From Leucobacter chironomi DSM 19883 (lineage in GTDB: Bacteria; Actinomycetota; Actinomycetes; Actinomycetales; Microbacteriaceae): DNA of 64,000 nucleotides. The position numbers and the translations under genes are program-made. Shown in pieces: positions 1,939 through 58,857 of this stretch. Position 1 is the first letter of the stretch. Every line of letters begins with the position of its first letter. The stretch covers positions 248,001 to 312,000 of the forward strand of contig NZ_ATXU01000002.1 in NCBI RefSeq assembly GCF_000421845.1, read 5' to 3'. Below the pieces are notes generated by a model that saw only the letters and a program-made list of their open reading frames with translations, ran no database searches and was not told the origin of the DNA.

Positions 1939-3144
1939 TCAGGCCGCGTCGAAGCTCGCGGGCAGCGGCAGATTGCCCACGCCGGTCACCCGCACCGCGT
2001 CGAGTCCCTGCCAGCGCGCCGCGTTCGCCAGCAGCGACACCGCGGTCTCCGCAGTACGCGCAGGCGCCCGATCCTCCATCCACGCGGCCTGCACCAGCAG
2101 CGCGCCGCGCTCCCCCGGCTTCCGGGGCCGATCCGCCTTCAGATCGATGCGGCCGGCGAGCCGGCCGCCCACCATCAGCGGCAGGCAGTAGTAGCCGTAG
2201 CGCCGCTTCTCCTTCGGCGTGTAGATCTCGATGCGGTAGTGGAAATCGAACACGCGCTCGGCCCGCGGCCTGAACCACACCACCGGGTCGAACGGGGTCA
2301 GCAGCGCGTCAGGGGCGAGCCGCGCAGGCACACGGGCATCCCGGTGCAGCCAGGCCGTCTCGGGTGAACCGTCGCCCCGAAGCCACCCGGAGACGGCCAC
2401 CGGGATCAGGGCCCCCTGCTCCTCCAAGCCCTGCACCGCCGCACGCGCATCGGCAGGCTTCAGCCGGTGATAGTCGGCGAGATCCGCGAGCGTCGCGACC
2501 CCGAGAGAGCGGGCCGCCTGCTCTACGAGCGCGCGCTGCGCCTCCTCCCGGCCCACCGGTTGCAGCGCCTCGGCGGGCAGCACCTGCTCGGCGAGCGCGT
2601 AGCGCCGCTGGAACCCCTCACGGCCCGCAGCAGCCACCTCGCCCCAGGCGAACAGCATCTCCACTGCGAGCTTCGTGTCGCTCCAGTCCCACCACGGCCC
2701 GCGACCACTGCGCGGACCGTCCTCCAGCTCGCGCACGAACTGCGGGCCGTCCGAGGCGAGCGCCGACCGCACCTGATCGATCGTCGGCGCCAGCGCCTCG
2801 GCGCGACCATCGCGGCGGTAGCGGTCGCGGAACTCGCCCATGCGCCACCCGAACAGCGCCCGATCGCGCACCGGAATGAACGCCGCCTCGTGCGCCCAGT
2901 ACTCCGTGAACTCGCCGTCGCGCCACAGATGACGGTCGAGCGCCGCCGCGTCGTAACCGCCGTGGCGGGAGAACACGGGCAGGTAGTGGCTGCGGGCGAA
3001 CACGTTCACCGAATCGATCTGCAGCACGTGCAGTGCGTCGAGCGCGGCGTCGAACGGGCGCCGCCGACGTAGCCGCGGCGCGTTCGAGAACCCCTGGGCC
3101 GCGAGCCCGACGCGTCGCGCCTCGGCGGCGCTCAGGGAATCCAC
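1939..3144 (-). CDS. YcaQ/AlkX-type winged-helix DNA glycosylase
   Basis: A 401-residue protein of the HTH_42 (YcaQ/AlkZ) family, which unhooks DNA interstrand crosslinks and removes bulky alkylated bases. The family active site is a Q-x-D or Q-x-Q motif near the N-terminus; here it is QID at residues 42-44 (LQIDSVN), the form typical of the YcaQ/AlkX branch. Other family marks are YWAHEAAFIP (about residue 82) and YCLPLMVGGRLAGR (about residue 310). The start is GTG, 10 bases after the ndk stop codon, so the two genes are probably co-transcribed. Standing beside uvrB, it forms a small DNA-repair neighbourhood. The substrate range cannot be read from sequence. Confidence 0.85.
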   Translation of the reverse strand: MDSLSAAEARRVGLAAQGFSNAPRLRRRRPFDAALDALHVLQIDSVNVFARSHYLPVFSRHGGYDAAALDRHLWRDGEFTEYWAHEAAFIPVRDRALFGWRMGEFRDRYRRDGRAEALAPTIDQVRSALASDGPQFVRELEDGPRSGRGPWWDWSDTKLAVEMLFAWGEVAAAGREGFQRRYALAEQVLPAEALQPVGREEAQRALVEQAARSLGVATLADLADYHRLKPADARAAVQGLEEQGALIPVAVSGWLRGDGSPETAWLHRDARVPARLAPDALLTPFDPVVWFRPRAERVFDFHYRIEIYTPKEKRRYGYYCLPLMVGGRLAGRIDLKADRPRKPGERGALLVQAAWMEDRAPARTAETAVSLLANAARWQGLDAVRVTGVGNLPLPASFDAA

Positions 3145-3154
3145 GAGCGTGGAA

Positions 3155-45417: not shown

Positions 45418-46558
45418 TTCGAGCAGACCGGTCGCGCCCCCCACTGATCTCGACATCGCAAAGACCTTCGATGGTGACCGTCTGCGGCAAGCTCGACAAC
45501 TCGCGTTGCGCACGAAGCAGAGTCTCGCAGAACCACTTGGCGTCTCGGCAGCCGCTATTGGGCAATATGAATCCGGCGCCACGCCACCCCGCGCGGAACT
45601 CATCCCGCTTCTAGCCCGAGAACTTGACGTTCCGCGAGAGTTCTTCGCCGCCGGTCGGCCGCTCGCTCGGCTTGAGACAGCCGATGCCTTCTTCCGGAGC
45701 CTTCGAGCCACGACGGCGAAACAGCGCGCCAAGGCAGTGTCCTATACGGAGCAACTGTGGGAGTTGGTTCATGCAGTCGAGAAGCACGTCCGCTTGCCAC
45801 CCGTGAACCTGCCCGGCTTCGTTGGCGGTGAGGTAGAACCTGGTGTATTCCCAAACGACCCAACAGCGGCCGCGCGGGCACTACGCAAGGCATGGAGGCT
45901 AGGCGCGGAACCGATCCCGCATCTCGTGCGCACCATCGAGAATCAGGGCATCGTCGCAGTCTTGGTCCCCTTCGCCGAAGACGAAGTTGCCCGCATCGAC
46001 GCGTTCTCCACACTTTCGCTGTCGCGACCGATCATCGTCCTGTCACCTGACCGTGCGAACGACATCTACCGACACCGCTTCACCGCTGCACACGAACTCG
46101 GACACCTCGTCATGCATGGCGAACTCGCCGGCGGTGACCCCGCATTGGAACGAGAAGCGGACCGATTCGCCGCCGAGTTCCTGACACCAAGTTTGGTGAT
46201 CCAAGACCTACTCCCTCGGCGGATCGACTTTCGAAAGCTGAACCAGTTGAGCGAACAATGGGGGGTATCCATCAAGTCCCTCATCTACAGGAGCAGAGAG
46301 GTCGGCCTGCTATCCGACGCCACCGCTCGGCGCGCATACATTCAGCTGAACCAGCTCTCAGAGCAAGGTGTGATCGCAACCCAGCCCGTTTACCAGTTTC
46401 CCGGTGAGGTTCCTTCGCTCCTTCGCCGCGCCGTCGAGATGGCCGAAGCAAACGGCGTCACCATCGCATCCTTGGCTCAGGAACTCGCCTGGAAACCAGC
46501 CCAAGTCCGCCGCATGCTCGGCGACGCAGACGAGCGGCCAACTCTAAGACTAGTTTGA
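45404..46558 (+). CDS. XRE-family regulator fused to ImmA/IrrE zinc peptidase
   Basis: 384 residues from ATG 45404. An N-terminal XRE helix-turn-helix (LRQARQLALRTKQSLAEPLG, IGQYESGATPPR; residues 27-80) is followed by an ImmA/IrrE peptidase with the zinc motif HELGH at residues 230-234 and the downstream glutamate in EREADRFAAEFLTP. Relatives cleave or inactivate repressors to switch on mobile-element or stress genes. It lies directly upstream of the Thoeris-like genes in the same direction, 80 bases away, so it may control them. Confidence 0.88.
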   Translation: MISRDSSRPVAPPTDLDIAKTFDGDRLRQARQLALRTKQSLAEPLGVSAAAIGQYESGATPPRAELIPLLARELDVPREFFAAGRPLARLETADAFFRSLRATTAKQRAKAVSYTEQLWELVHAVEKHVRLPPVNLPGFVGGEVEPGVFPNDPTAAARALRKAWRLGAEPIPHLVRTIENQGIVAVLVPFAEDEVARIDAFSTLSLSRPIIVLSPDRANDIYRHRFTAAHELGHLVMHGELAGGDPALEREADRFAAEFLTPSLVIQDLLPRRIDFRKLNQLSEQWGVSIKSLIYRSREVGLLSDATARRAYIQLNQLSEQGVIATQPVYQFPGEVPSLLRRAVEMAEANGVTIASLAQELAWKPAQVRRMLGDADERPTLRLV

Positions 46559-46638
46559 TTCAGCTCATCGACCCAGGACCGTCGATCTATCTACATCTTT
46601 CCGCAGCCCTACCCAGTTCCAGATTTAAAGAGGAAACA

Positions 46639-47148
46639 ATGAGTTACCGCAATAAAACCTATGTCGCTTTCGCCAGCGAGGACATCGGCAAGTACCGTCT
46701 GATGGAAGCATGGAAAGCAAATCCCAACTTCGACTTCAATTTCTATGATGCTCACACCCTGTACGTTTCGCGCGATACGAGCCAGCCTGAAACGATCAAG
46801 CGTAATCTGCGCGAACGAATGAAGAACGCCAAACAGGTGGTTCTTCTCGGGAGTGGTGACGCTAGACGAAAAGGCGGAGACGGTGTCTCGTTTCTCGCGC
46901 ATGAGATTAAGGTGATGATGGAGTTCAATCTTCCGGTGGTCATCGCGAATCTTGATAGTGGTCGTACCGTCAACAAGAACTTCATACCGGCACCGCTATT
47001 GAACGCAAACTATTACACGGTGTCAGTGTCGTTCCAGCCTAAGATCATCAAGCATGCGCTTGACGACTACGCAGTCCAGTTTGGAACCAGCAATAATTCG
47101 GGACCGCACCAGTATCCGTCCGGAACTTACGCGACGCTCGGCCTATAG
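46639..47148 (+). CDS. thsB: TIR-like (MTH538/ThsB) signalling enzyme of a type II Thoeris system
   Basis: 169 residues from ATG 46639, preceded by AAAGAGGAA. YRNKTYVAFASEDIGKYRLM, DFNFYDAHTL, ETIKRNLRERMKNAKQVVLL and FLAHEIKVMMEFNLPVVIAN follow the MTH538 TIR-like fold used by ThsB. The glutamate in AHEI (residue 89) matches the catalytic Glu of TIR NAD-hydrolysing enzymes. In Thoeris, phage infection triggers TIR proteins to make an NAD-derived messenger; type II ThsB makes histidine-ADPR. The stop directly abuts the ATG of the macro-domain gene, the expected partner. Confidence 0.87.
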   Translation: MSYRNKTYVAFASEDIGKYRLMEAWKANPNFDFNFYDAHTLYVSRDTSQPETIKRNLRERMKNAKQVVLLGSGDARRKGGDGVSFLAHEIKVMMEFNLPVVIANLDSGRTVNKNFIPAPLLNANYYTVSVSFQPKIIKHALDDYAVQFGTSNNSGPHQYPSGTYATLGL

Positions 47149-48000
47149 ATGAGAGACCTTGCACACGATCTGCGCACGTGGCGCTTCTGGCGTTGGTTCC
47201 TCATCCAAACGTTCTCCGCAGTCGGAGTTCTTGCGGTTCTGCTCGAACTGACCAACTTCATCTTCGGGAGTCTTCCGATCGAGGGGTGGCCGCTCGCCAT
47301 CATCATTGCTGTCGTTTCGATCGGGTACGGACTTGTCCGTGCTTGGCCGCGCCCCATCCGGCAGGACTACAACTCACCGAACACGATGATTGAGATTGTG
47401 AAGGGCGATTTGTTCGCGCAGGACAGCAACATCGTGGTGGGTACCTGCGACACGTTCGATACGTCCGTTCCTAACATCATCGCGAAGAACAGCGTTCAAG
47501 GTCAGGCGCTCGAACGCCTCTACGGTGGCGATACGGATCAACTGGACCGCGAACTCGCCGCGGCGTTGCAGGGCAAGACGGTAAAGGCGACGATCCAGAA
47601 GCACGGGAAGACTGAGAAGTACGGCGTTGGGGCCGTGGCCACGCTTCGAAACGGTTCTCACCGCCTCTACTTCTTGGCGTACAGCGAGATGAACGAGGCT
47701 AACGAAGCACAGAGCACGCCGGATGGGATCTGGCGAAGTCTTGCGTCGTTGTGGGAAGAGGTCTCGCGGACCGCGAACGGAACTGCGGTAGCTGTCCCCG
47801 TCATCGGCGGAGGACAGTCCCGGTTGTCACAGGTCATGCCGGCGCAAGACTCGATCCGCTTTATCGTGATGTCCTTCATGTTCGCGTCGCGAACGAAGAA
47901 GGTGTGCGATCAGCTGCGAATAGTGGTGCATCCGAGGGATTTCGATCGCCTGGACAGGCTCGAACTCCAAGCGTTCCTGTCATCGATGAGGCCGTCGTGA
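47149..48000 (+). CDS. thsA: Two-TM macro-domain effector of a type II Thoeris system
   Basis: 283 residues. Two membrane helices (about 14-36, WFLIQTFSAVGVLAVLLEL, and 45-65, WPLAIIIAVVSIGYGLV) lead into a macro-like (DUF6430) domain: IEIVKGDLFAQDSNIVVGTC, VPNIIAKNSVQGQ, YGVGAVATL, AVPVIGGGQSRLS. This is the known architecture of type II ThsA, which binds histidine-ADPR through the macro domain and then disrupts the membrane. There are no intervening bases after thsB. The last four bases overlap a HIT hydrolase gene. Confidence 0.87.
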   Translation: MRDLAHDLRTWRFWRWFLIQTFSAVGVLAVLLELTNFIFGSLPIEGWPLAIIIAVVSIGYGLVRAWPRPIRQDYNSPNTMIEIVKGDLFAQDSNIVVGTCDTFDTSVPNIIAKNSVQGQALERLYGGDTDQLDRELAAALQGKTVKATIQKHGKTEKYGVGAVATLRNGSHRLYFLAYSEMNEANEAQSTPDGIWRSLASLWEEVSRTANGTAVAVPVIGGGQSRLSQVMPAQDSIRFIVMSFMFASRTKKVCDQLRIVVHPRDFDRLDRLELQAFLSSMRPS

Positions 48001-51103: not shown

Positions 51104-54100
51104 TCACAGGCCCAGGCCCGCGCCCTCGCGCCGCGCAGTCCGAGATGGCTCGTCGTGTCGTTCGGCACTAGCGAGGTCGCGGAGTCTTGCGAGAGCGGCT
51201 TTCGCTCGTGCGGCGTCGATCTTCTGTGCGTCACTGTCGGGTGCCGGGCCGAGCGGCGTGCGTGTGGTGATGCCGTAGCGGTCCCGGTACGCGGCCACGG
51301 TTCTCGCCTGCTGTTTCCACGTGGCCACGGCTCTCGTCTCAGGCGGCATGTTTCCGAGTGCGAGCGCCCATTCGTGACGCTCGGTGAGGGCGTGGTCGAG
51401 GACGGCCACGGCGCGTTGTTCGATCAGCTCGCGTCGCTCCGTGAGGGCATTCCGCATCTCGGCGCTCATGGGCCCGGCGGCTTCGGGGATGAGGCCGGAG
51501 ATCAGTCGGGGCGCCTTGCGGGTGCGCCCGGAACCTGCGGGTCTGGCGGTGGCTCGGGTAAGACGGTGGTGGATGACGGAGGCGATGTCGTCGGCGTCGC
51601 CGAAGCCGCGTGCTGCGACGAGCCGCGGGATGAGGGCGTCGATGTTGTGGTGGTTCGCTTCGGCTCTGCGGAGTTCGGCGGTGAGTGCCCCGAACGCGTC
51701 GGAGTGGATCGTGTCTTCTGCTTCGTCCGGGGTGAGGCCGGATTGACGGATGAGGGTGGCGAAGCGGTCGTGTTGGGCGGCTTGCGCGATCGTTTCGTAC
51801 TCCGCCGCGAGCTGCGCCACCGACCCCCAGGCCTCCTGTTCGGCGATGATCGTCTCGTGCGCGGAGAGTTCCGCGCCGACGTGCTGCAGCACTCCATAGA
51901 GCACGCTCCGCGCGGTCGCATCCGGGTCATCCGCCGGGTGCGGGGTGGTGTGGTTGTCGTCGGGGAGGTCGGTGGCGACATATGCGAGGTTCGTGTGCCT
52001 GCCGCGAGTCATCGCGACATACAGGTTCTCCCTGGTCGTAGACGGATCAACAAGGACATGCGAGGTGTCGGTCGTGATGCCTTGCGCCCTATGAGCCGTC
52101 ACTGAGTAACCCAGATCGACGTGATCGGAGACGTAGTCGGCAGGGAGAATCACGGTGCCGCGGCTGTCGGCGCGGCGGGCGGTGAGTGATCCATCGTCGC
52201 GGATGTCGGCAATGGTCCAGCGGTCACCGTTGCGCACCCATCCTCGCGGGGTGCGGAGGCGTCGGTCGTTCTTCCGGGTGATGATCGTGTCACCTACCCC
52301 GGCACGCGCGTCGCCTTGGAGGGCGACTTCGCGACGGGCATCTACTGTGCCGTCGAGGATGAGGTCGGCGCGGGCGCGCTGGTTCAGAGCGTGGACGGAG
52401 TCGTTGGAGTCCGCGATCAACACCGTCGAAGCACCGTTGAGGGTGTCGTTGCGCCAGGCGATGTAGGCGGCGTCGATCATCGCCTCGGTATCGCCGCCGG
52501 TGATGCGGCCATGTTCGGCGTAGGTGTCGATGGCCTCGGGGCGCCCGTGGCGGAGGTCAAGCGAGGCCGTCTTCTCCCACTCGTTGACGAAGCGGTGCAC
52601 GTCGACCAGTTCCGGGGCATCGTCGCGGTCGTGGACGAGGAGGGAGAACGCGCCGCCTGCGGTGACGGATTGCAGTTGCGCCCAATCACCCACAAGCAAC
52701 ACCTTCGCACCCATCTCGGTTGCGTGCTCGGTGATGCGATCCATGGAGAGCGTGCCGGCGAGGGAGGCTTCGTCCACGATCACGAGCTGCCCCTTACGGA
52801 ACGACGCACCCGCGTTCTGGTGGTCTTTCCACCACTTCGCCGTGTTCTCTGTTTTGATACCGAGGTCTTCGGCGAGGACCTGCGCTGCGACCGCTGACGG
52901 GGCGAGGCCGACGACGCTGCCACGCCCGTGCTCCCGCTCCCACGCAGTGCGCAGAGCTCGCATCGCCGTTGTCTTCCCAGCGCCGGCGGGGCCGACCAGC
53001 ACATCGACTGCGCGGCCTGATGCCGCGACGGCGGTGAGCGCTGAGGTTTGGTCGGCGGCGAGGAGTCGGCCGTCGCGATCTGGGCGGCGGGTGACCTTCT
53101 CGATCACTTCGATTGGCACAGTGCGTGCGGTCATGGTTCGGGCGCGCTCGAGGAGTCGATCTTCTGCCGCGAGGATTTCCGGTGATGAGTACACCGTCGA
53201 CGCGATCGGCCGGAACCTGCTGCTGTCATCAGAGCGGCGGAACACGGCCGGGCTCGATGCGAGCTCGGGCGGAGTCAGCTGGAGGGAGGCGCGCTCTGCG
53301 GCATCGACGACCATTCCGACTACGGCTTCGCGATCCCTCGTGGTGGCGAACCGGTAGGGCATGGTCTGGCGGGCAGCCTCGGCGGTGAGGTTCCACCTAC
53401 GCCAGGTCGACCGCTTCTCACCGACTGCTCCAACCACACTGCGGCCCAGAGCGTCGATCACATCCAGGGGCACATCATCAGCGCGCAGCAGTCGCGGTGC
53501 ATCGTTCGCGGTGACGGTGCGTGCCCAGTGGGTGGCGTCTTCACCGAGCAGGTGCGACGCGCTCTCCCGCCACTCGCCGGTGAGGTCAGCGAGCGAACGA
53601 ACCTGCTTCTCCGGTCTGGTTGCCAACGTTGCTTGTGCTCGGAGCTTGATGACCGTCGCAAGCGATGGTTGCCTGCCGTGTCGGGCAACGTACTCAGCGA
53701 TGAGCCGGTTCTTCCCCTCATTAATCTGCCGTGACCGGGATGAGAACTCCGCCACCAACCTCTCCGGCACCGTGCTGATCGCCCAGGCGGGGTTGCGGTC
53801 ACGTCCCATGTCTCTGGCTTCCCACTCGACGCCGAACGCGCGGGTGAGGTGGTCGGCGAACGCGGCTTCGTGGAGTTCTGAGAGGGCGACGGTGGCGGCG
53901 TGGAGGGGCCGGCCGTCGAGGGAGCGCCATTTGCCGTCGTGGACGGTCTGCACCTTGTTCGAGATCACCACATGCGTGTGCAGATGCGGGTCACCCGCTC
54001 GCGAATCGTAGTGATCGAACGCAGTCGCGATCACCCCGGATACATCGGCCTGCGCAACCGCCCCGTTGCGGCCTGCCGCGCCGACGCGGGTTGCGGCAAC

Positions 54101-54652
54101 CTCGCGTTCGATGAATGCAACCATTTCCGCAACCGCCGCGTGATGCGCATCCGCAATCAGCGATTGCGTCCCCGCGTCCGACACCGCCCACAGCACCGAT
54201 GCGGACTTCGGAACCGAGAACGTGAAATCGAACCCCGCAACCGCCTTCCGCACCCCACGCGCACTCTCCTCAGCCGCGATTGTGGCGACCGCGTCGGCAC
54301 GCTCGGTCACAGGAAGGTCTGCGTCGAGCCTCAACGTGCGGTGCTCAATGCGCTCGGTCACGGTCGGATACTTCCGATACGGGCTTCCGAGCGCTTGGCG
54401 TGTCACGGGGTCGCGGCCCTGTCCAATCAGACGTTGAAGCTGCAACTCAGAGACCTCGTCGCCGACGGTGATCGTTCTACCGCCGAGCGCGGGGACGGCT
54501 GATCCGAGCCATCGCCCCGGCGGGGTGCCTTCCTCCGTGTAGTACCTCGTCAACGGCGTTGAGAGCACCCGGTCACCGTCGCCGGTGGCGACGGTACGCA
54601 GAAGGTACTTGTAGCCGTCACCGGCGGACATCACCCGCATCGAAACCGTCAC
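51104..54652 (-). CDS. MobF-family conjugative relaxase (TrwC/TraA type) with helicase domain
   Basis: 1,182 residues from GTG 54652 (VTVSMRVMSAGDGYKYLLRTV), just after GAGGAGAGGTGG. The open frame extends further upstream, but that part is low-quality sequence. The relaxase domain has the N-terminal tyrosine region, DFTFSVPKSASVLWAV and the metal triad HLHTHVVISNK. The helicase half has Walker A VLVGPAGAGKTTAMRAL, Walker B LVIVDEASLAGT and VTAHRAQGITTDTSHV. It nicks oriT and leads the strand into a recipient. No type IV secretion genes lie in the window, so the element may be mobilisable rather than self-transmissible, or continue beyond it. Confidence 0.93.
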   Translation of the reverse strand: MTVSMRVMSAGDGYKYLLRTVATGDGDRVLSTPLTRYYTEEGTPPGRWLGSAVPALGGRTITVGDEVSELQLQRLIGQGRDPVTRQALGSPYRKYPTVTERIEHRTLRLDADLPVTERADAVATIAAEESARGVRKAVAGFDFTFSVPKSASVLWAVSDAGTQSLIADAHHAAVAEMVAFIEREVAATRVGAAGRNGAVAQADVSGVIATAFDHYDSRAGDPHLHTHVVISNKVQTVHDGKWRSLDGRPLHAATVALSELHEAAFADHLTRAFGVEWEARDMGRDRNPAWAISTVPERLVAEFSSRSRQINEGKNRLIAEYVARHGRQPSLATVIKLRAQATLATRPEKQVRSLADLTGEWRESASHLLGEDATHWARTVTANDAPRLLRADDVPLDVIDALGRSVVGAVGEKRSTWRRWNLTAEAARQTMPYRFATTRDREAVVGMVVDAAERASLQLTPPELASSPAVFRRSDDSSRFRPIASTVYSSPEILAAEDRLLERARTMTARTVPIEVIEKVTRRPDRDGRLLAADQTSALTAVAASGRAVDVLVGPAGAGKTTAMRALRTAWEREHGRGSVVGLAPSAVAAQVLAEDLGIKTENTAKWWKDHQNAGASFRKGQLVIVDEASLAGTLSMDRITEHATEMGAKVLLVGDWAQLQSVTAGGAFSLLVHDRDDAPELVDVHRFVNEWEKTASLDLRHGRPEAIDTYAEHGRITGGDTEAMIDAAYIAWRNDTLNGASTVLIADSNDSVHALNQRARADLILDGTVDARREVALQGDARAGVGDTIITRKNDRRLRTPRGWVRNGDRWTIADIRDDGSLTARRADSRGTVILPADYVSDHVDLGYSVTAHRAQGITTDTSHVLVDPSTTRENLYVAMTRGRHTNLAYVATDLPDDNHTTPHPADDPDATARSVLYGVLQHVGAELSAHETIIAEQEAWGSVAQLAAEYETIAQAAQHDRFATLIRQSGLTPDEAEDTIHSDAFGALTAELRRAEANHHNIDALIPRLVAARGFGDADDIASVIHHRLTRATARPAGSGRTRKAPRLISGLIPEAAGPMSAEMRNALTERRELIEQRAVAVLDHALTERHEWALALGNMPPETRAVATWKQQARTVAAYRDRYGITTRTPLGPAPDSDAQKIDAARAKAALARLRDLASAERHDEPSRTARREGAGLGL

Positions 54653-54929
54653 CAGCCGCCACCTCTCCTCACTCCGAAGGTGAGCTCCGCAGCCCGCGGC
54701 GCGGTGACTTCTGAGGTCACTTTCGGACGGTGGCGCGCCTCGCTTGCAAGACGCGTGACAACCCGTTCGAGCGAACCGTGAGGGATCGGCAGCGCTGGGC
54801 GCCGACGGTGCTGGAGCGAGGTGGGAGGCGTCGGCTGAGCGGCGGCGCGTGGGCGGTTCGTGCACCTGGTTGGTGACCAGCTCGGAGTAGCAGCACGGCT
54901 CCGGGATCACCGCTCTAGGAGGTTTACCC

Positions 54930-56126
54930 GTGGCCGACCAGACACTCACCGACCGGGTCGCTCTGCTGCGTGTCGGGTCGCTGTTCTCCGGCTACGGCGG
55001 ACTCGATCTCGCTGTCGAAGAAGTCTTCAATGCCAGAACGATCTGGTTCTCCGAGATCAACGAGCCCGTCGCCCGCATCTTCTCCCACCACTGGCCCGAG
55101 GCCCCGAACCTTGGTGATATCACCGCCATCGACTGGAAAACCGTGCCGCCAGTGGACATCCTCTGTGGCGGGTTTCCCTGCCAGGACGTATCGACCGTCG
55201 GGAAGATGGCCGGTCTGAAGCCCGGCACCCGTTCCGGCCTCTGGGCACATATGGCGGCAGCGATCGACGCGCTGCAACCCGACTGGGTCGTGATCGAGAA
55301 TGTCCGCGGGCTGCTTTCTGCACCAGCTATACGCGCAAACTTCGAAGGAGTCCACGATGAGCAACGCAACATCGCAAATGCAGCCCCCGACGGTGCAACC
55401 CCTCGCGATATGGAACGCGACCCGTGGCATCTGGGAGAAACCACAGCTCGACCTCTTCGAGCAGCAGGAGCAGTTTTGGGAGACCTGGCCGACCTCCGGT
55501 ATGACGCGCAATGGATCGGTCTACCCGCTTCCGCGGTCGGCGCACCCCACCCCCGATACCGGGTCTTCATCCTTGCCCACCGCACTGTTTCGCACTCCAC
55601 TGGCATCCGACGCAGCTCGCGGGGGCGAGAGCTTGCAACAGGTGAAAGCACGCCGCGGCACGATTGCGCTCAGCCACCAGATCATCGACCTTGCCTTGCA
55701 CGGCCCGAATGGGTACCCACGTTCCGAGGAGTCAGAGAGCCTGTGGAGGTTGATCGAGGAATTCTTCGACGATGGGGACGTTACGCCGTGCCAGTGACTT
55801 ACTGGACGCAGATCATCGGTCGGCCCGCACCGGCGCCTGCAATCCTGACCGACGCGACTGGCCCGCGGCCCGCACCGGCATTCGTGGAATGGTTGATGGG
55901 TTTACCGTCTGGTTGGGTGACTGATGCGCGTCACGAACTCACCACGAATAGTCAGATCACGGCGCTCGGGAACGGAGTCGTCCCCAGGCAAGCGGTTTCG
56001 GCCATCTCCAGTTTGTTAAACACCTGGCTGGAGGAGCATCGACCGAGGTCATCCGATCGAGCGGTAAACCCATATCAAGCTGTAGTAGATAGAACCGGGG
56101 TGGAGACGGGGGTAGCCGGGAGTTGA
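54930..56126 (+). CDS. C5-cytosine DNA methyltransferase
   Basis: 398 residues from GTG 54930 with AGGAGG eight bases upstream. Motif I is LFSGYGGLDLAVEE, motif IV GGFPCQDVSTVGK with the catalytic Cys, motif VI VVIENVRGLL, motif VIII near GAPHPRYRVFILA, motif X ALGNGVVPRQA. The middle (about residues 145-285) is atypically low in recognisable structure because a second gene overlaps it in another frame. No restriction enzyme is seen nearby; it probably protects the mobile element. The last 15-20 codons run through a junction with an ABC-gene fragment, so the natural C-terminus may have been replaced. Confidence 0.88.
   Translation: MADQTLTDRVALLRVGSLFSGYGGLDLAVEEVFNARTIWFSEINEPVARIFSHHWPEAPNLGDITAIDWKTVPPVDILCGGFPCQDVSTVGKMAGLKPGTRSGLWAHMAAAIDALQPDWVVIENVRGLLSAPAIRANFEGVHDEQRNIANAAPDGATPRDMERDPWHLGETTARPLRAAGAVLGDLADLRYDAQWIGLPASAVGAPHPRYRVFILAHRTVSHSTGIRRSSRGRELATGESTPRHDCAQPPDHRPCLARPEWVPTFRGVREPVEVDRGILRRWGRYAVPVTYWTQIIGRPAPAPAILTDATGPRPAPAFVEWLMGLPSGWVTDARHELTTNSQITALGNGVVPRQAVSAISSLLNTWLEEHRPRSSDRAVNPYQAVVDRTGVETGVAGS
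55357..55797 (+). CDS. Gene embedded out of frame inside the methyltransferase gene
   Basis: 146 residues entirely inside the methyltransferase gene, in another frame. The ATG has GAAGGAG six bases upstream. The content is protein-like: IWNATRGIWEKPQLDLFEQQ, WETWPTSGMTRNGSVYPLP, SLPTALFRTPLASDAARGG and SLWRLIEEFFDDGD. The WPTSGMTRNG-type block recalls small proteins that accompany phage and island cytosine methyltransferases. Function unknown. Both frames appear constrained, so this looks like true dual coding. Confidence 0.65.
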   Translation: MSNATSQMQPPTVQPLAIWNATRGIWEKPQLDLFEQQEQFWETWPTSGMTRNGSVYPLPRSAHPTPDTGSSSLPTALFRTPLASDAARGGESLQQVKARRGTIALSHQIIDLALHGPNGYPRSEESESLWRLIEEFFDDGDVTPCQ

Positions 56127-56339
56127 GTTAGGGTTCGGCCCGGTTCTGGGACCGACGCAATCAGCGAGCGAGTGTACGGGTGTTGGGGATTTCCCAAGAC
56201 TTGTGAGCTGGGTCCTTGCTCGCACGCCTCACCGCGGTACAGCACCAATACACTCTCGCAGAGCGAACGCACCACGCTGAGATCGTGCGAGACGAACATC
56301 AGTGCCGTTCCGTGCTCCAAGGTGCTGCGATGCAGCAGG
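56075..56339 (-). pseudogene. C-terminal fragment of an oligopeptide ABC transporter ATPase
   Basis: About 87 codons: LEHGTALMFVSHDLSVVRSL holds the H-loop, then VLVLYRGEACEQGPSSQVL and NPQHPYTRSLIASVPEPG, the typical Opp/Dpp ATPase tail. Walker A, signature and Walker B are missing: the IS3-family element begins exactly where the upstream part should lie, and that part is not found on the other side of it. Confidence 0.85.
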
Positions 56340-56398
56340 TTGAATCGGCCTGGGTTTGGTGGAGGGCATGATCTAACACGAAAGAGAGAATTGAGATC

Positions 56399-56731
56399 AT
56401 GCCAGCACCGAAGAAGTACGACCCCGAGACCCAAGCCCGAGCGGTCCGACTCTATGACGAGCGCATTGCTCAGGGCGGTATCTCCCAAGCGGGCGCCCGC
56501 CGAGAGATCGGTGGGCTCCTCGATATCAATCCCGGGACCCTGAGAAACTGGATCCGCCGCGAACACGGCGAAGGCACCACCCCGCCCGCGTCAGCAGCTG
56601 CCGAGCCGGCGAACGAGGAGATCACCCGGTTGCGTCGCGAGGTCTCGCAGCTCAAGCGTGCGAACGAGATCTTGAAGACCTCGGCCGCGTTTTTCGCGGC
56701 AGCGGAGCTCGACCGCAAACTCGGACAGTGA
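56399..56731 (+). CDS. IS3-family transposase OrfA
   Basis: 110 residues: an HTH domain (YDPETQARAVRLYDERIAQG, GLLDINPGTLRNWIRREHG) and a leucine-zipper-like helix (EITRLRREVSQLKRANEILK). It ends with a four-base overlap to orfB (GTGA), the site where OrfAB is made by frameshifting in this family. Confidence 0.92.
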   Translation: MPAPKKYDPETQARAVRLYDERIAQGGISQAGARREIGGLLDINPGTLRNWIRREHGEGTTPPASAAAEPANEEITRLRREVSQLKRANEILKTSAAFFAAAELDRKLGQ

Positions 56732-57360
56732 TCGCGTACATTCGCGAGTATCGGGACCGGTTCGGGGTCGAGCCGATCTGCGCTGTGCTGCGTGAGCATG
56801 GCGTCCAGATCGCCCCGTCGACGTTCTACGCATTCCAGGCCCGTGGTTTCGGCCTCAGCGATCGTGACCTTTCAGATGCGTACCTCGCGAACCAGTTGTT
56901 CGATCTCTGGGTACGCAACCGGCGCCTCTACGGGCGGAGGAAGCTCTGGAAAGCCGCACGCCGAGCGGGGAGTACTGTCGGCCGTGATCAGGTCGAACGC
57001 CTGATGCGACTCCTCGGGGTCAGCGGGATCCGGCGCGGCAAGCGCACCACGGTAACCACAACAGGAGACGCGAAAGCTGCCCGGCATCCTGATCACATCC
57101 AACGGCGGTGGGCGTGGCCGTCGCGTCCGGATCAGTGGTGGGTCGCGGACTTCACCTATGTGTGGACCCCGAGAGGGTTCTGCTACGTCAGCTTCATCAC
57201 CGATGTGTTCTCCCGCAGGATCCTGGGGTGGCGGGTCATGACGGCGAAGACCACGACGTTGGTGCTCTCCGCGCTCGAGCAGTCGCTGTTCACTCGTCGG
57301 CGCACGAATGTGGAGTTCACGACGACCGGGCTGCTGCACCACTCCGACGCGGGCTCTCAG
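56728..57360 (+). pseudogene. IS3-family transposase OrfB, 5' part (split by the IS30-type element)
   Basis: DDE integrase core of the rve type: WWVADFTYVWTPRGFCYVSF (first Asp), FITDVFSRRILGW, and LLHHSDAGSQ (second Asp). The frame is broken at the CAG duplicated by the inner element; joined to 58861 the reading SQ-YTSL is restored, giving 312 residues. Confidence 0.9.
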
Positions 57361-58857
57361 GGCGGATTCAACTGGTCGTCGCAACACCTTGATCATGGAG
57401 GTGTTGCGCGATGGCGACGAAGTACTGGTCTGCGAAGACGAGCGAGGTTCCTGAAGGGGCTCGACGCCAGTGGCGCGCGGATCGCGCGTTGCGGCCGCCG
57501 ATGCGCTCGCCTGGGCGGCCTGAGCCGTCTCGGGCGGTGCAGCGGCAGTTCTGGCGTCTGATCGCGACGGGCATCAACACGGCCGAGGCGGCACTGAAAG
57601 TGGGCGTGTCTGTGCCGGTCGGGAGCCGCTGGTTTCGCCACGCTGGCGGCATGCCACCGATCTCACTGGCCGAGCCCACCGGTCGTTACCTGTCCTTCGA
57701 GGAGCGCGAGGAGATCGCGCTGCTGCGCGCCAAGCAGATCGGGGTGCGTGAGATCGCACGCAGGATCGGCCGTGACCCGGGGACGGTCTCTCGCGAGTTG
57801 CGTCGGAACGCGGCCACCCGTGGCGGGAAGCCGGAGTACCGGGCCTTGGTGGCGCAATGGAAGGCGCAGCAAGCGGCGAAGCGTCCGAAGATGGCGAGGC
57901 TCGCGACGAACGACAGGTTGCGCGAGTATGTCCAGGAGCGGCTCGCCGGCAAGGTCCGCAGGCCCGACGGCAGCATCGTCGTTGGGCCTGAACCGCCGGC
58001 ATGGAAGGGGCTGAACAAACCGCACCGGCAGGACCGACGGTGGGCGACCGCGTGGAGCCCGGAGCAGATCTCCCACCGGCTGAAGGTCGACTTCCCGGAT
58101 GATGAGTCCATGCGCATCAGTCACGAAGCGATCTACCAGTCGCTGTTCATCCAGGGTCGTGGCGCGCTGGGGCGCGAGCTCGTCACCTGCCTGCGAACCG
58201 GCCGCGCACTCCGGCGGCCACGGGCTCGAGCACAGAACCGACCGCAAGGGCATGTCACCGCGGACGTCGTGTTCTCGAAGCGTCCCGCGGAGGCCGCGGA
58301 CCGCGCGGTTCCTGGGCACTGGGAGGGCGACTTGATCATCGGCACGGGCCGCTCCGCGATCGGCACGCTCGTTGAGCGCAAGAGCCGCTCGACCCTGCTG
58401 GTGCATCTGCCGCGGCTGGAAGGCTACGGCGAGACACCGCCGGTCAAGAACGGTCCCGCGCTGGGCGGCTACGGCGCTGTCGCGATGAACGCCGCGCTCA
58501 TCGCGTCGATGACGAAGCTTCCCGAACAGCTCCGCAAGACACTCACCTGGGACCGCGGCAAGGAACTCTCCGCGCACGCCCAGTTCGCGCTCGAGACGGG
58601 CACGAAGGTGTTCTTCGCCGACCCCCACTCGCCCTGGCAGCGGCCAACGAACGAGAACACGAACGGGTTGCTGCGTCAGTACTTCCCGAAGGGCACGGAC
58701 CTCTCACGATGGTCAGCGGAAGACCTCGAAGCAGTCGCTCTCGCGTTGAACAACCGTCCCCGCAAGAGCCTCGACTGGAAGACCCCGGCCGAGGTGTTCG
58801 AGGAGCAGCTACGCTCGCTTCAACAACCCGGTGTTGCATCGACCGGTTGAACCCAGT
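57361..58857 (+). mobile_element. IS30-family insertion sequence inside the IS3-family element
   Basis: 1,497 bases, flanked by CAG on both sides (57358-57360 and 58858-58860), a 3-base target duplication. Imperfect terminal repeats: left GGCGGATTCAACTGGTC, right complement ACTGGGTTCAACCGGTC. One transposase gene fills it. Confidence 0.9.
57411..58850 (+). CDS. IS30-family transposase
   Basis: 479 residues. An N-terminal HTH region (YLSFEEREEIALLRAKQIGV, REIARRIGRDPGTVSRELRR) is typical of IS30. The DDE catalytic residues lie in GHWEGDLIIGTG, LTWDRGKELSAH and RPTNENTNGLLRQYFPKG. It is intact, so the element may still move. Confidence 0.95.
   Translation: MATKYWSAKTSEVPEGARRQWRADRALRPPMRSPGRPEPSRAVQRQFWRLIATGINTAEAALKVGVSVPVGSRWFRHAGGMPPISLAEPTGRYLSFEEREEIALLRAKQIGVREIARRIGRDPGTVSRELRRNAATRGGKPEYRALVAQWKAQQAAKRPKMARLATNDRLREYVQERLAGKVRRPDGSIVVGPEPPAWKGLNKPHRQDRRWATAWSPEQISHRLKVDFPDDESMRISHEAIYQSLFIQGRGALGRELVTCLRTGRALRRPRARAQNRPQGHVTADVVFSKRPAEAADRAVPGHWEGDLIIGTGRSAIGTLVERKSRSTLLVHLPRLEGYGETPPVKNGPALGGYGAVAMNAALIASMTKLPEQLRKTLTWDRGKELSAHAQFALETGTKVFFADPHSPWQRPTNENTNGLLRQYFPKGTDLSRWSAEDLEAVALALNNRPRKSLDWKTPAEVFEEQLRSLQQPGVASTG

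Follow-up and report, generated by a model that had tools for sequence, protein, structure and literature searches.

A 64,000-nucleotide stretch of the genome of Leucobacter chironomi DSM 19883 (contig NZ_ATXU01000002.1, positions 248,001 to 312,000; hereafter the window) carries a gene for a C5 cytosine methyltransferase (MTase), here called alpha, and within it, in the +1 frame, a second gene, here called beta. Dual coding of alpha and beta is established by comparative evidence from related sequences, and the overlap, which recurs in many phages and transferable elements, looks like a real and widespread case of one sequence specifying two proteins. Whether bacteria have long genes that overlap on one strand is disputed, and comparative support exists for few of them. 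We consider it likely that the locus encodes a two-polypeptide C5-MTase in which the dual-coded second subunit, beta, would recognize the target, working like M.EcoHK31I or M.AquI and laid out differently. The features concerned are the following.

54917..54922, + strand: Shine-Dalgarno sequence AGGAGG of alpha, 7 nucleotides 5' of the GTG at 54930, from the sequence
54930..56126, + strand: alpha, C5-MTase open reading frame (ORF) of 398 residues with motifs I-VIII, a linker and motifs IX and X, from its GTG start, translation and profile matches
55300..55302, + strand: second beta-frame ATG, an upstream alternative made by the AAT codon of motif VI (ENV), from the sequence and the classes of start site
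55345..55350, + strand: Shine-Dalgarno sequence AAGGAG of beta (within GAAGGAG, 55344-55350), 6 nucleotides 5' of the ATG at 55357
55357..55797, + strand: beta, +1-frame gene inside alpha, 146 residues plus stop, from ATG 55357, its phrog_1008 match and the ratio of nonsynonymous to synonymous change (dN/dS, omega)
55359..55454, + strand: overlap segment 1, alpha 144-175 and the beta N-terminus; beta frame selected
55455..55580, + strand: overlap segment 2, alpha 176-217, with motif VIII in alpha and the WETWPTSGMTRNG core in beta; both frames constrained
55581..55772, + strand: overlap segment 3, alpha 218-281, an unconstrained linker in alpha and the module LFRTPLASDAARGGESL...SHQIIDLALHG in beta; beta selected
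55881..55916, + strand: motif IX-like FVEWLMGLPSGW, in the alpha frame in the window and in the beta frame in other relatives
55962..55985, + strand: motif X ALGNGVVP, in the alpha frame in the window

The motifs read by eye in alpha, which we take to be those of C5-MTases, are FSGYGG (I), GGFPCQ (IV), ENVRG (VI), PRYRVF (VIII), the IX-like FVEWLMGLPSGW and ALGNGVVP (X). The catalytic motifs I, IV (PCQ), VI (ENV) and VIII (RxR) all lie in one frame, and alpha matches PF00145 (Pfam, E = 1.8e-33, best stretch 14-131) as well as phrog_363 (E = 1.8e-66) and phrog_116 (E = 2.1e-62) of the PHROG collection. The motif VIII segment on its own aligns with PF00145 126-163 (E = 6.7e-4) at 19.6 bits, below the curated cut-off of 22. 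Motifs IX-X are recognized by eye and through the matches to phrog_363 and phrog_1008, and the 90-residue C-terminal piece alone gave no PF00145 match. An earlier note, made from the letters alone, had placed the methyltransferase motifs in one frame and, inside it, a 146-codon frame with its own GAAGGAG and the ATG at 55357, and both placements are confirmed. C5-MTases normally keep their target-recognition region between motifs VIII and IX.

A search with beta finds it in 24 of the 299 genomes of the family, the window's own included, and in 18 of 85 genera. The phase of variability was followed along ten sequences aligned by alpha codons, the window among them. These were drawn from 20 oriented sequences after omission of the near-duplicates L015 and L016 and of partial, broken or differently laid out copies (L006, L017, L023, L024, L025, L026, L027 and L037); L022 was retained, although its beta contains one in-frame TGA. 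In the alpha-only N-terminus the mismatch at alpha codon positions 1, 2 and 3 is.139,.091 and.362, with its peak at position 3. In the linker it is.476,.221 and.167, the peak having moved to alpha position 1 (equivalent to beta position 3), and in the alpha C-terminus (.294,.279 and.613) the peak is back at alpha position 3. Within the close group the corresponding values are.220,.133 and.050 over overlap segment 1 and.434,.144 and.092 over overlap segment 3.

Pairwise omega was obtained for the close group (n=5) and for the full set (n=10). Close relatives give 0.10 for alpha and 2.59 for the beta frame in the N-terminus, 2.55 and 0.29 over overlap segment 1, 0.15 and 0.72 over the motif VIII segment, 2.95 and 0.10 over overlap segment 3, and 0.10 for alpha and 1.51 for the +1 frame in the C-terminus. 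With all ten sequences the values for alpha and beta are 1.31 and 0.68 over segment 1 and 2.30 and 0.19 over segment 3, the frame flip being clear in the latter and weaker in the former. Along the gene, selection in close relatives passes from the alpha frame to the beta frame and then returns to alpha: alpha is selected at both ends, beta over overlap segments 1 and 3, and the motif VIII stretch is where both frames count. Alpha does not behave as a single-chain C5-MTase, as its region between motifs VIII and IX (alpha 218-281) is selected in the beta frame and not in the alpha frame. The claim that the methyltransferase becomes low in recognizable structure across the overlap holds for alpha 218-281, which resembles a by-product, but not for alpha 176-217, which carries motif VIII and is constrained in both frames.

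Since most loci of the first set had been fetched by a beta peptide pattern covering alpha 181-192, a first codon resampling was not relied on alone and was redone on loci fetched by alpha only. The query, alignment A2, covers motifs I-VI and ends at motif VI, 5' of nearly all beta starts; it was built from alphas that have a beta, and the set it retrieved is confined to the nearest alpha relatives. This set of 110 loci consists of the best 80 of at least 593 confirmed viral stretches and of 30 loci read from class genomes (394 scanned, 180 with a match). It spans a guanine-plus-cytosine (GC) content of about 41 to 73%, includes the window itself as L282 and overlaps the first, mainly beta-retrieved set. 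The beta profile is found in +1 in 98 of the 110. Four of the 12 others (L208, L246, L250 and L306) have no motif VIII match in the available DNA, and five (L255, L261, L262, L271 and L305) have, on inspection by eye, a +1 candidate that is weak or divergent. Among the 103 non-redundant loci, 36 with gaps or ends in the tested stretch were omitted, and in the remaining 67 the alpha codons were resampled synonymously with the alpha protein kept fixed. The beta frame is open in all 67, against 33.1 expected from resampling, and in 66 of them (the exception being L256) fewer than 5% of the draws reach the beta profile score. At GC below 0.55 beta is open in 19 of 19 loci against 3.4 expected. Codon choice in the alpha-retrieved loci is skewed, Gly190, where present, being GGG in 98% (17% in the N-terminus) and Leu189 being CTC in 98% (33% in the N-terminus), showing what the overlap costs alpha. 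Beta lies +1 of motif VIII in 196 of the 198 loci of the larger, mainly beta-retrieved set, same-place duplicates included, and both exceptions are one broken copy seen twice. In the deduplicated pool of both sets (223 loci) beta is in +1 in 210 and in +0 in one, and 12 are without it.

The start of beta takes one of three forms. In the first, seen in 24 of 53 loci of the alpha-retrieved set, a start codon of the beta frame, GTG in most cases, begins exactly 13 nucleotides 3' of the first base of the Arg codon in motif VI, and the VRG codons of ENVRG themselves give an AGAGG- or AGGGG-like site. The motif VI Arg is AGA or AGG in 36 of 53 loci against 78 of 290 other Arg codons (at GC above 0.65, 10 of 20 against 9 of 134). 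In the second form the beta ATG is made by the AAT codon of ENV, the only recognized beta start site in one class of relatives. With the two sets pooled, AAT is used in 39 of 54 loci lacking both other forms, compared with 24 of 113 loci that have another form and 72 of 372 other Asn codons. The third form, that of the window, is AAGGAG followed after 6 nucleotides by an ATG further downstream; AAGGAG is also present in L013, L015, L016, L017, L036 and L042, and L014 has AAGGGG. A start can be recognized in most of the loci scored, 108 of 116 in one set and 44 of 51 in the other. The start signal of beta is often partly written into the motif VI codons of alpha, and these independent solutions argue for a separate initiation of beta. 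The true dual coding proposed earlier is borne out by the flip of variability phase and dN/dS between frames and by the resampling, and homologous MTases keep both the second frame and its start. Purifying selection on that frame, a further point at issue, is seen in plain dN/dS over two of the three overlap segments and in codon resampling over the motif VIII segment.

The frame of motifs IX-X could be scored in 199 of the 210 deduplicated loci with beta in +1. The alpha frame carries them in 141 loci, which is the layout of the window and the commonest; 55 loci have them in the beta frame and three in the third frame. Where IX-X are in the alpha frame, alpha is open through the beta region in 141 of 141 loci, against 36.2 expected were only beta selected; where they are in the beta frame, it is open in 6 of 55 (2.9 expected). 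Beta and IX-X share one ORF in 39 of 202 loci. Parsimony on a tree of alpha (208 rows, cross-set duplicates kept) requires 18 changes of the IX-X frame, compared with 53.2 on average when the labels are shuffled; some of the 18 concern broken copies, L017 among them. Motifs IX-X are on beta in phages Gladiator, TaylorSipht and Geodirt, and in Paenibacillus phage Gryphonian (L319) and mycobacteriophage ShroomBoi (L322) motif IX is on the +1 ORF and motif X on alpha, as judged by eye and from weak profile matches. Five phage contigs (L056, L058, L067, L077 and L123) have three ORFs: one for alpha (I-VIII), one for beta and a further one that carries IX-X on its own. In L136, L159, L166, L172 and L185 motifs I-VI run in frame directly into beta and motif VIII is in the other frame; these are either ruins of a frameshift or another working split.

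Beta of the window matches phrog_1008, a PHROG profile named 'DNA methyltransferase' and given no finer function, at positions 62-150 of 329 (E = 2.9e-12). Towards its other end (230-325) this profile is matched by alpha 281-370 (E = 1e-27). That phrog_1008 spans both beta and motifs IX-X is a first sign of one functional unit. The beta of TaylorSipht matches positions 71-320 and that of Gryphonian 28-283, whereas the beta of the window lacks the IX-X half, which is matched by alpha instead. No Pfam, NCBIfam or PADLOC family was found for the beta of the window, nor any Pfam family for four beta-frame relatives. A core, WN..R..WE....L......WPTSGM..NG..Y.LP, is followed by at least one module of about 30-45 residues starting like LLPTP or LFRTP; by eye the window has one such module and relatives have tandem arrays. 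Judged by sequence, beta beyond its core consists of exchangeable modules: 1274 module pairs with at least 70% identity over at least 25 residues were found between loci whose alpha I-VI are less than 60% identical (134 loci, same-place duplicates kept), as in L229 and L303, with 91% module identity at 39% alpha identity. By analogy, this exchange resembles that of the target-recognition domains of phage C5-MTases. The assignment of target recognition to beta is made from its position, the layouts of its relatives and the module exchange, and not from a fold. The earlier note had offered beta as either a companion or an anti-restriction protein. The former fits far better, given the name of phrog_1008 and the relatives in which the beta frame runs into IX-X.

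In the mechanism that we favour, alpha (frame 0) would supply the catalytic domain with motifs I-VIII and, in this lineage, also IX-X after a linker that is kept free of stops and is otherwise unconstrained. Beta would start at its own ribosome-binding site and supply the core domain and one exchangeable module in the usual target-recognition place between VIII and IX, most likely joining alpha and setting or completing target recognition. We infer that beta is a separate polypeptide in the cell which binds alpha, is needed for methylation and recognizes DNA. As in the window, where the second frame is a selected one, the second polypeptide of M.EcoHK31I lies in an overlapping frame, its small polypeptide being, as a matter of background knowledge, read from another frame within the large gene, in agreement with the published motif layout. 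In excerpts of PMC3404938 that layout is given as two polypeptides (specificity YGGCCR), the large one with motifs I-VIII and X and the predicted target-recognition domain and the small one with motif IX. Unlike this enzyme, the window has IX and X both on alpha, and its beta is a core and module at the VIII-IX position; the IX/X split of M.EcoHK31I is matched instead by Gryphonian and ShroomBoi. In M.AquI (CYCGRG), according to the same excerpts (PMC3404938), the large subunit has I-VIII and part of the variable region, and the small one the distal variable region and IX-X. A similar split is found in TaylorSipht, Geodirt and Gladiator; the window differs in having IX-X on its large subunit and a beta that lies entirely inside alpha. 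Multispecific C5-MTases of Bacillus phages carry tandem target-recognizing domains, as described in part of PMC8936443, like the tandem short LPTP modules that occur in many relatives and are shared between loci; here, however, the modules are often in another frame than the catalytic part, and the window has a single one. No paper describing the overlap was found among the texts returned by a literature search limited to open-licence PMC papers, and novelty is not claimed.

A different +1 ORF over motif VIII, belonging to phrog_16143 and ending like KYYLSPRACQGILxRA, is found in some streptococcal and other phage MTases. It is in +1 of alpha in 82 of 83 loci (80 fetched with it, L326-L405, and three phage loci, duplicates kept), and one member matches phrog_1008 weakly (E = 0.0015). 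The members in the three phage loci are as follows.

L320, 1805-2209: phrog_16143-family ORF, with profile match
L324, 1631-2056: phrog_16143-family ORF, with profile match
L318, 1790-2152: phrog_16143-family ORF

Several observations weigh against beta being a target-recognizing subunit, or against the generality of the overlap. Broken relatives exist, including a second copy in the genome of the window as well as L006, L017, L024 and L027, and in-frame stops occur in L022 and L140 (one and the same locus) and in L129. No beta was found, by beta profile in +1 and by eye, in the alpha-retrieved loci L254, L256 and L311, and Enterobacter phage phiEap-3 (L317), one of nine hand-picked loci (L317-L325), has no long +1 ORF. 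Of the loci scored for a start in the two sets, 8 of 116 and 7 of 51 show none of the three forms. Plain dN/dS speaks weakly for beta across the motif VIII segment, where its omega is 0.72 among close relatives and 1.44 in the full set; the +1 frame of the control region, coding in alpha only, has 2.59 and 1.83, respectively. Under phrog_16143, alpha has IX- and X-like motifs in 57 of 83 loci by a loose pattern, and these often complete-looking enzymes suggest that the overlapping partner need not always supply the target-recognition region. An AlphaFold model was built for relative L148, in which beta is naturally joined to IX-X, from alignment A5. Its predicted local distance difference test score (pLDDT) is 69 and its predicted template modelling score (pTM) 0.43, and the N-terminal strand region and the IX-X part look confident. 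Foldseek of this model against the Protein Data Bank (PDB) gave no match at E<=0.001, an absence given no weight, VIA-align returned a single weak row, to DNMT3B (Z 2.3, 54 residues), confined to motifs IX-X, and a PDB sequence search with the beta alignment gave no match at E<=10. In BFVD the model has six rows at E<=0.001, four of them named methylase or methyltransferase, and these are phage proteins.

That beta is a real overlapping gene with a job outside the enzyme, such as an inhibitor, a regulator or an anti-restriction protein, would agree with the presence of both IX and X on alpha in the window and with the complete-looking MTases under phrog_16143. It is nevertheless unlikely, as 55 of 199 loci have IX-X in the beta frame, phrog_1008 joins beta and IX-X, the alpha frame shows no selection between VIII and IX (alpha 218-281, omega 2.95), and the modules are exchanged in the manner of target-recognition domains. 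Quite unlikely, too, is production of beta only as an alpha-beta fusion through programmed +1 ribosomal frameshifting near motif VIII. The constant +1 relation to motif VIII (196 of 198) speaks for it, and among the loci with IX-X in the beta frame (55 of 199) a single +1 shift could give a continuous chain of I-VIII, beta and IX-X wherever beta and IX-X share an ORF (39 of 202). However, many loci have beta start codons with a Shine-Dalgarno-like sequence 3' of motif VI, and the window type would need a second shift back to reach IX-X, yet its alpha is kept open through the overlap.

Two further explanations treat one of the frames as without function. An MTase in decay, its C-terminal part moved to the alpha frame by an insertion or deletion, could account for the broken copies, the second one in the same genome included, and for the 18 changes of the IX-X frame, some of which fall in broken copies such as L017. 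It is very improbable in view of the layout of the window being the commonest (141 of 199), alpha being open in 141 of 141 of these loci and both ends of alpha having an omega of 0.10. A chance ORF shaped by alpha codons in GC-rich DNA could be expected to arise, as the region has about 65% GC and the window holds 235 ORFs of at least 90 residues across all frames. Codon resampling with alpha fixed, a beta-frame omega below 1, persistence of beta at GC below 0.55 and the recurring start sites leave this explanation with next to no probability, and it was rejected on the phase flip, the resampling and the omega flip.

The dual-coded MTase adjoins a conjugation gene, a relaxase gene that stands head-to-head with alpha in the window.

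51104..54949, - strand: MobF (TrwC) relaxase ORF, divergent from alpha (PF08751, E = 8.1e-90), its true start probably near 54640

From this divergent arrangement the enzyme would probably pre-methylate the transferring element against host restriction, and the MTase of the window probably serves a conjugative element for self-protection. Indirect use against restriction, through self-methylation of such an element, is likely. Orphan MTases are enriched in the leading regions of plasmids and a protection of incoming DNA by them has been proposed, as stated in excerpts of PMC11541004; the window is similar in that its MTase adjoins a transfer gene. A relaxase N-terminus lies near the MTase in 59 fetched loci, including 33 of the 47 loci L124-L170; among the 59, several are the same place twice or short end fragments, and two, L314 and L315, were retrieved by their DNA similarity to the relaxase end and are further relaxase copies in the genome of the window itself. 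No restriction enzyme was recognized among the neighbouring ORFs scanned.

The relaxase N-terminal region (window 54001-54652) has two more copies in the same genome at about 71% DNA identity (C14:19746-20389 and C3:140435-141087), the latter about 12 kb from the second MTase copy of the genome. This second copy (contig C3, 153468-154503), with beta split between two frames, agrees in length and over its first 60 residues with loci in Leucobacter chromiisoli and Tessaracoccus caeni (L169 and L170, both 2519-3145), which suggests that a copy already broken was transferred recently. Very recent transfer is likewise suggested by loci of Brachybacterium, a Microbacteriaceae isolate and Janibacter (L131, L132 and L133), whose beta match figures are identical. 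Elsewhere in the window, a lower-GC stretch (46555-48000, + strand) holds a Thoeris pair, with a TIR-like ThsB (46555-47148, PF08937) followed by a macro-domain ThsA (47149-48000, PF20016). Downstream of alpha is a transposase gene pair (56399-57561, + strand), presumably of IS3 type, whose end is overlapped by a transposase ORF (57411-58850, + strand), presumably IS30-like, and the remnant of an oligopeptide-transporter ATPase C-terminus lies on the opposite strand at 56075-56566.

Annotation of the overlap varies. On the Microbacterium plasmid NZ_CP072877.1, where alpha is frameshifted, only beta is annotated, as a hypothetical protein, and on a Streptomyces plasmid and in prophi104-2 only alpha is; the gene tables of both plasmids are incomplete. 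Both genes are annotated in Gladiator, with a 179-nucleotide overlap, and the record of Gryphonian notes an embedded gene that no program called. On balance we lean towards same-strand dual coding over motif VIII being a general and ancient trait of the C5-MTases of phages and mobile elements, served by two weakly related +1 families, phrog_1008 and phrog_16143. The phrog_1008 frame would be a cassette-like specificity subunit, its start often lying in the codons of motif VI; motifs IX-X would have hopped between frames many times, and annotation would often keep only one of the genes.

The overlap offers some 200 non-redundant natural replicates (beta in +1 in 210 of 223 loci), with both frames constrained, for a disputed class of overlapping genes, and it connects M.EcoHK31I, a long-known curiosity, with a broad family found in phages and conjugative elements. 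If beta is a specificity subunit, its exchangeable modules would be a ready set for reading and engineering the targets of DNA methylation, and annotation of a single frame would discard half an enzyme.

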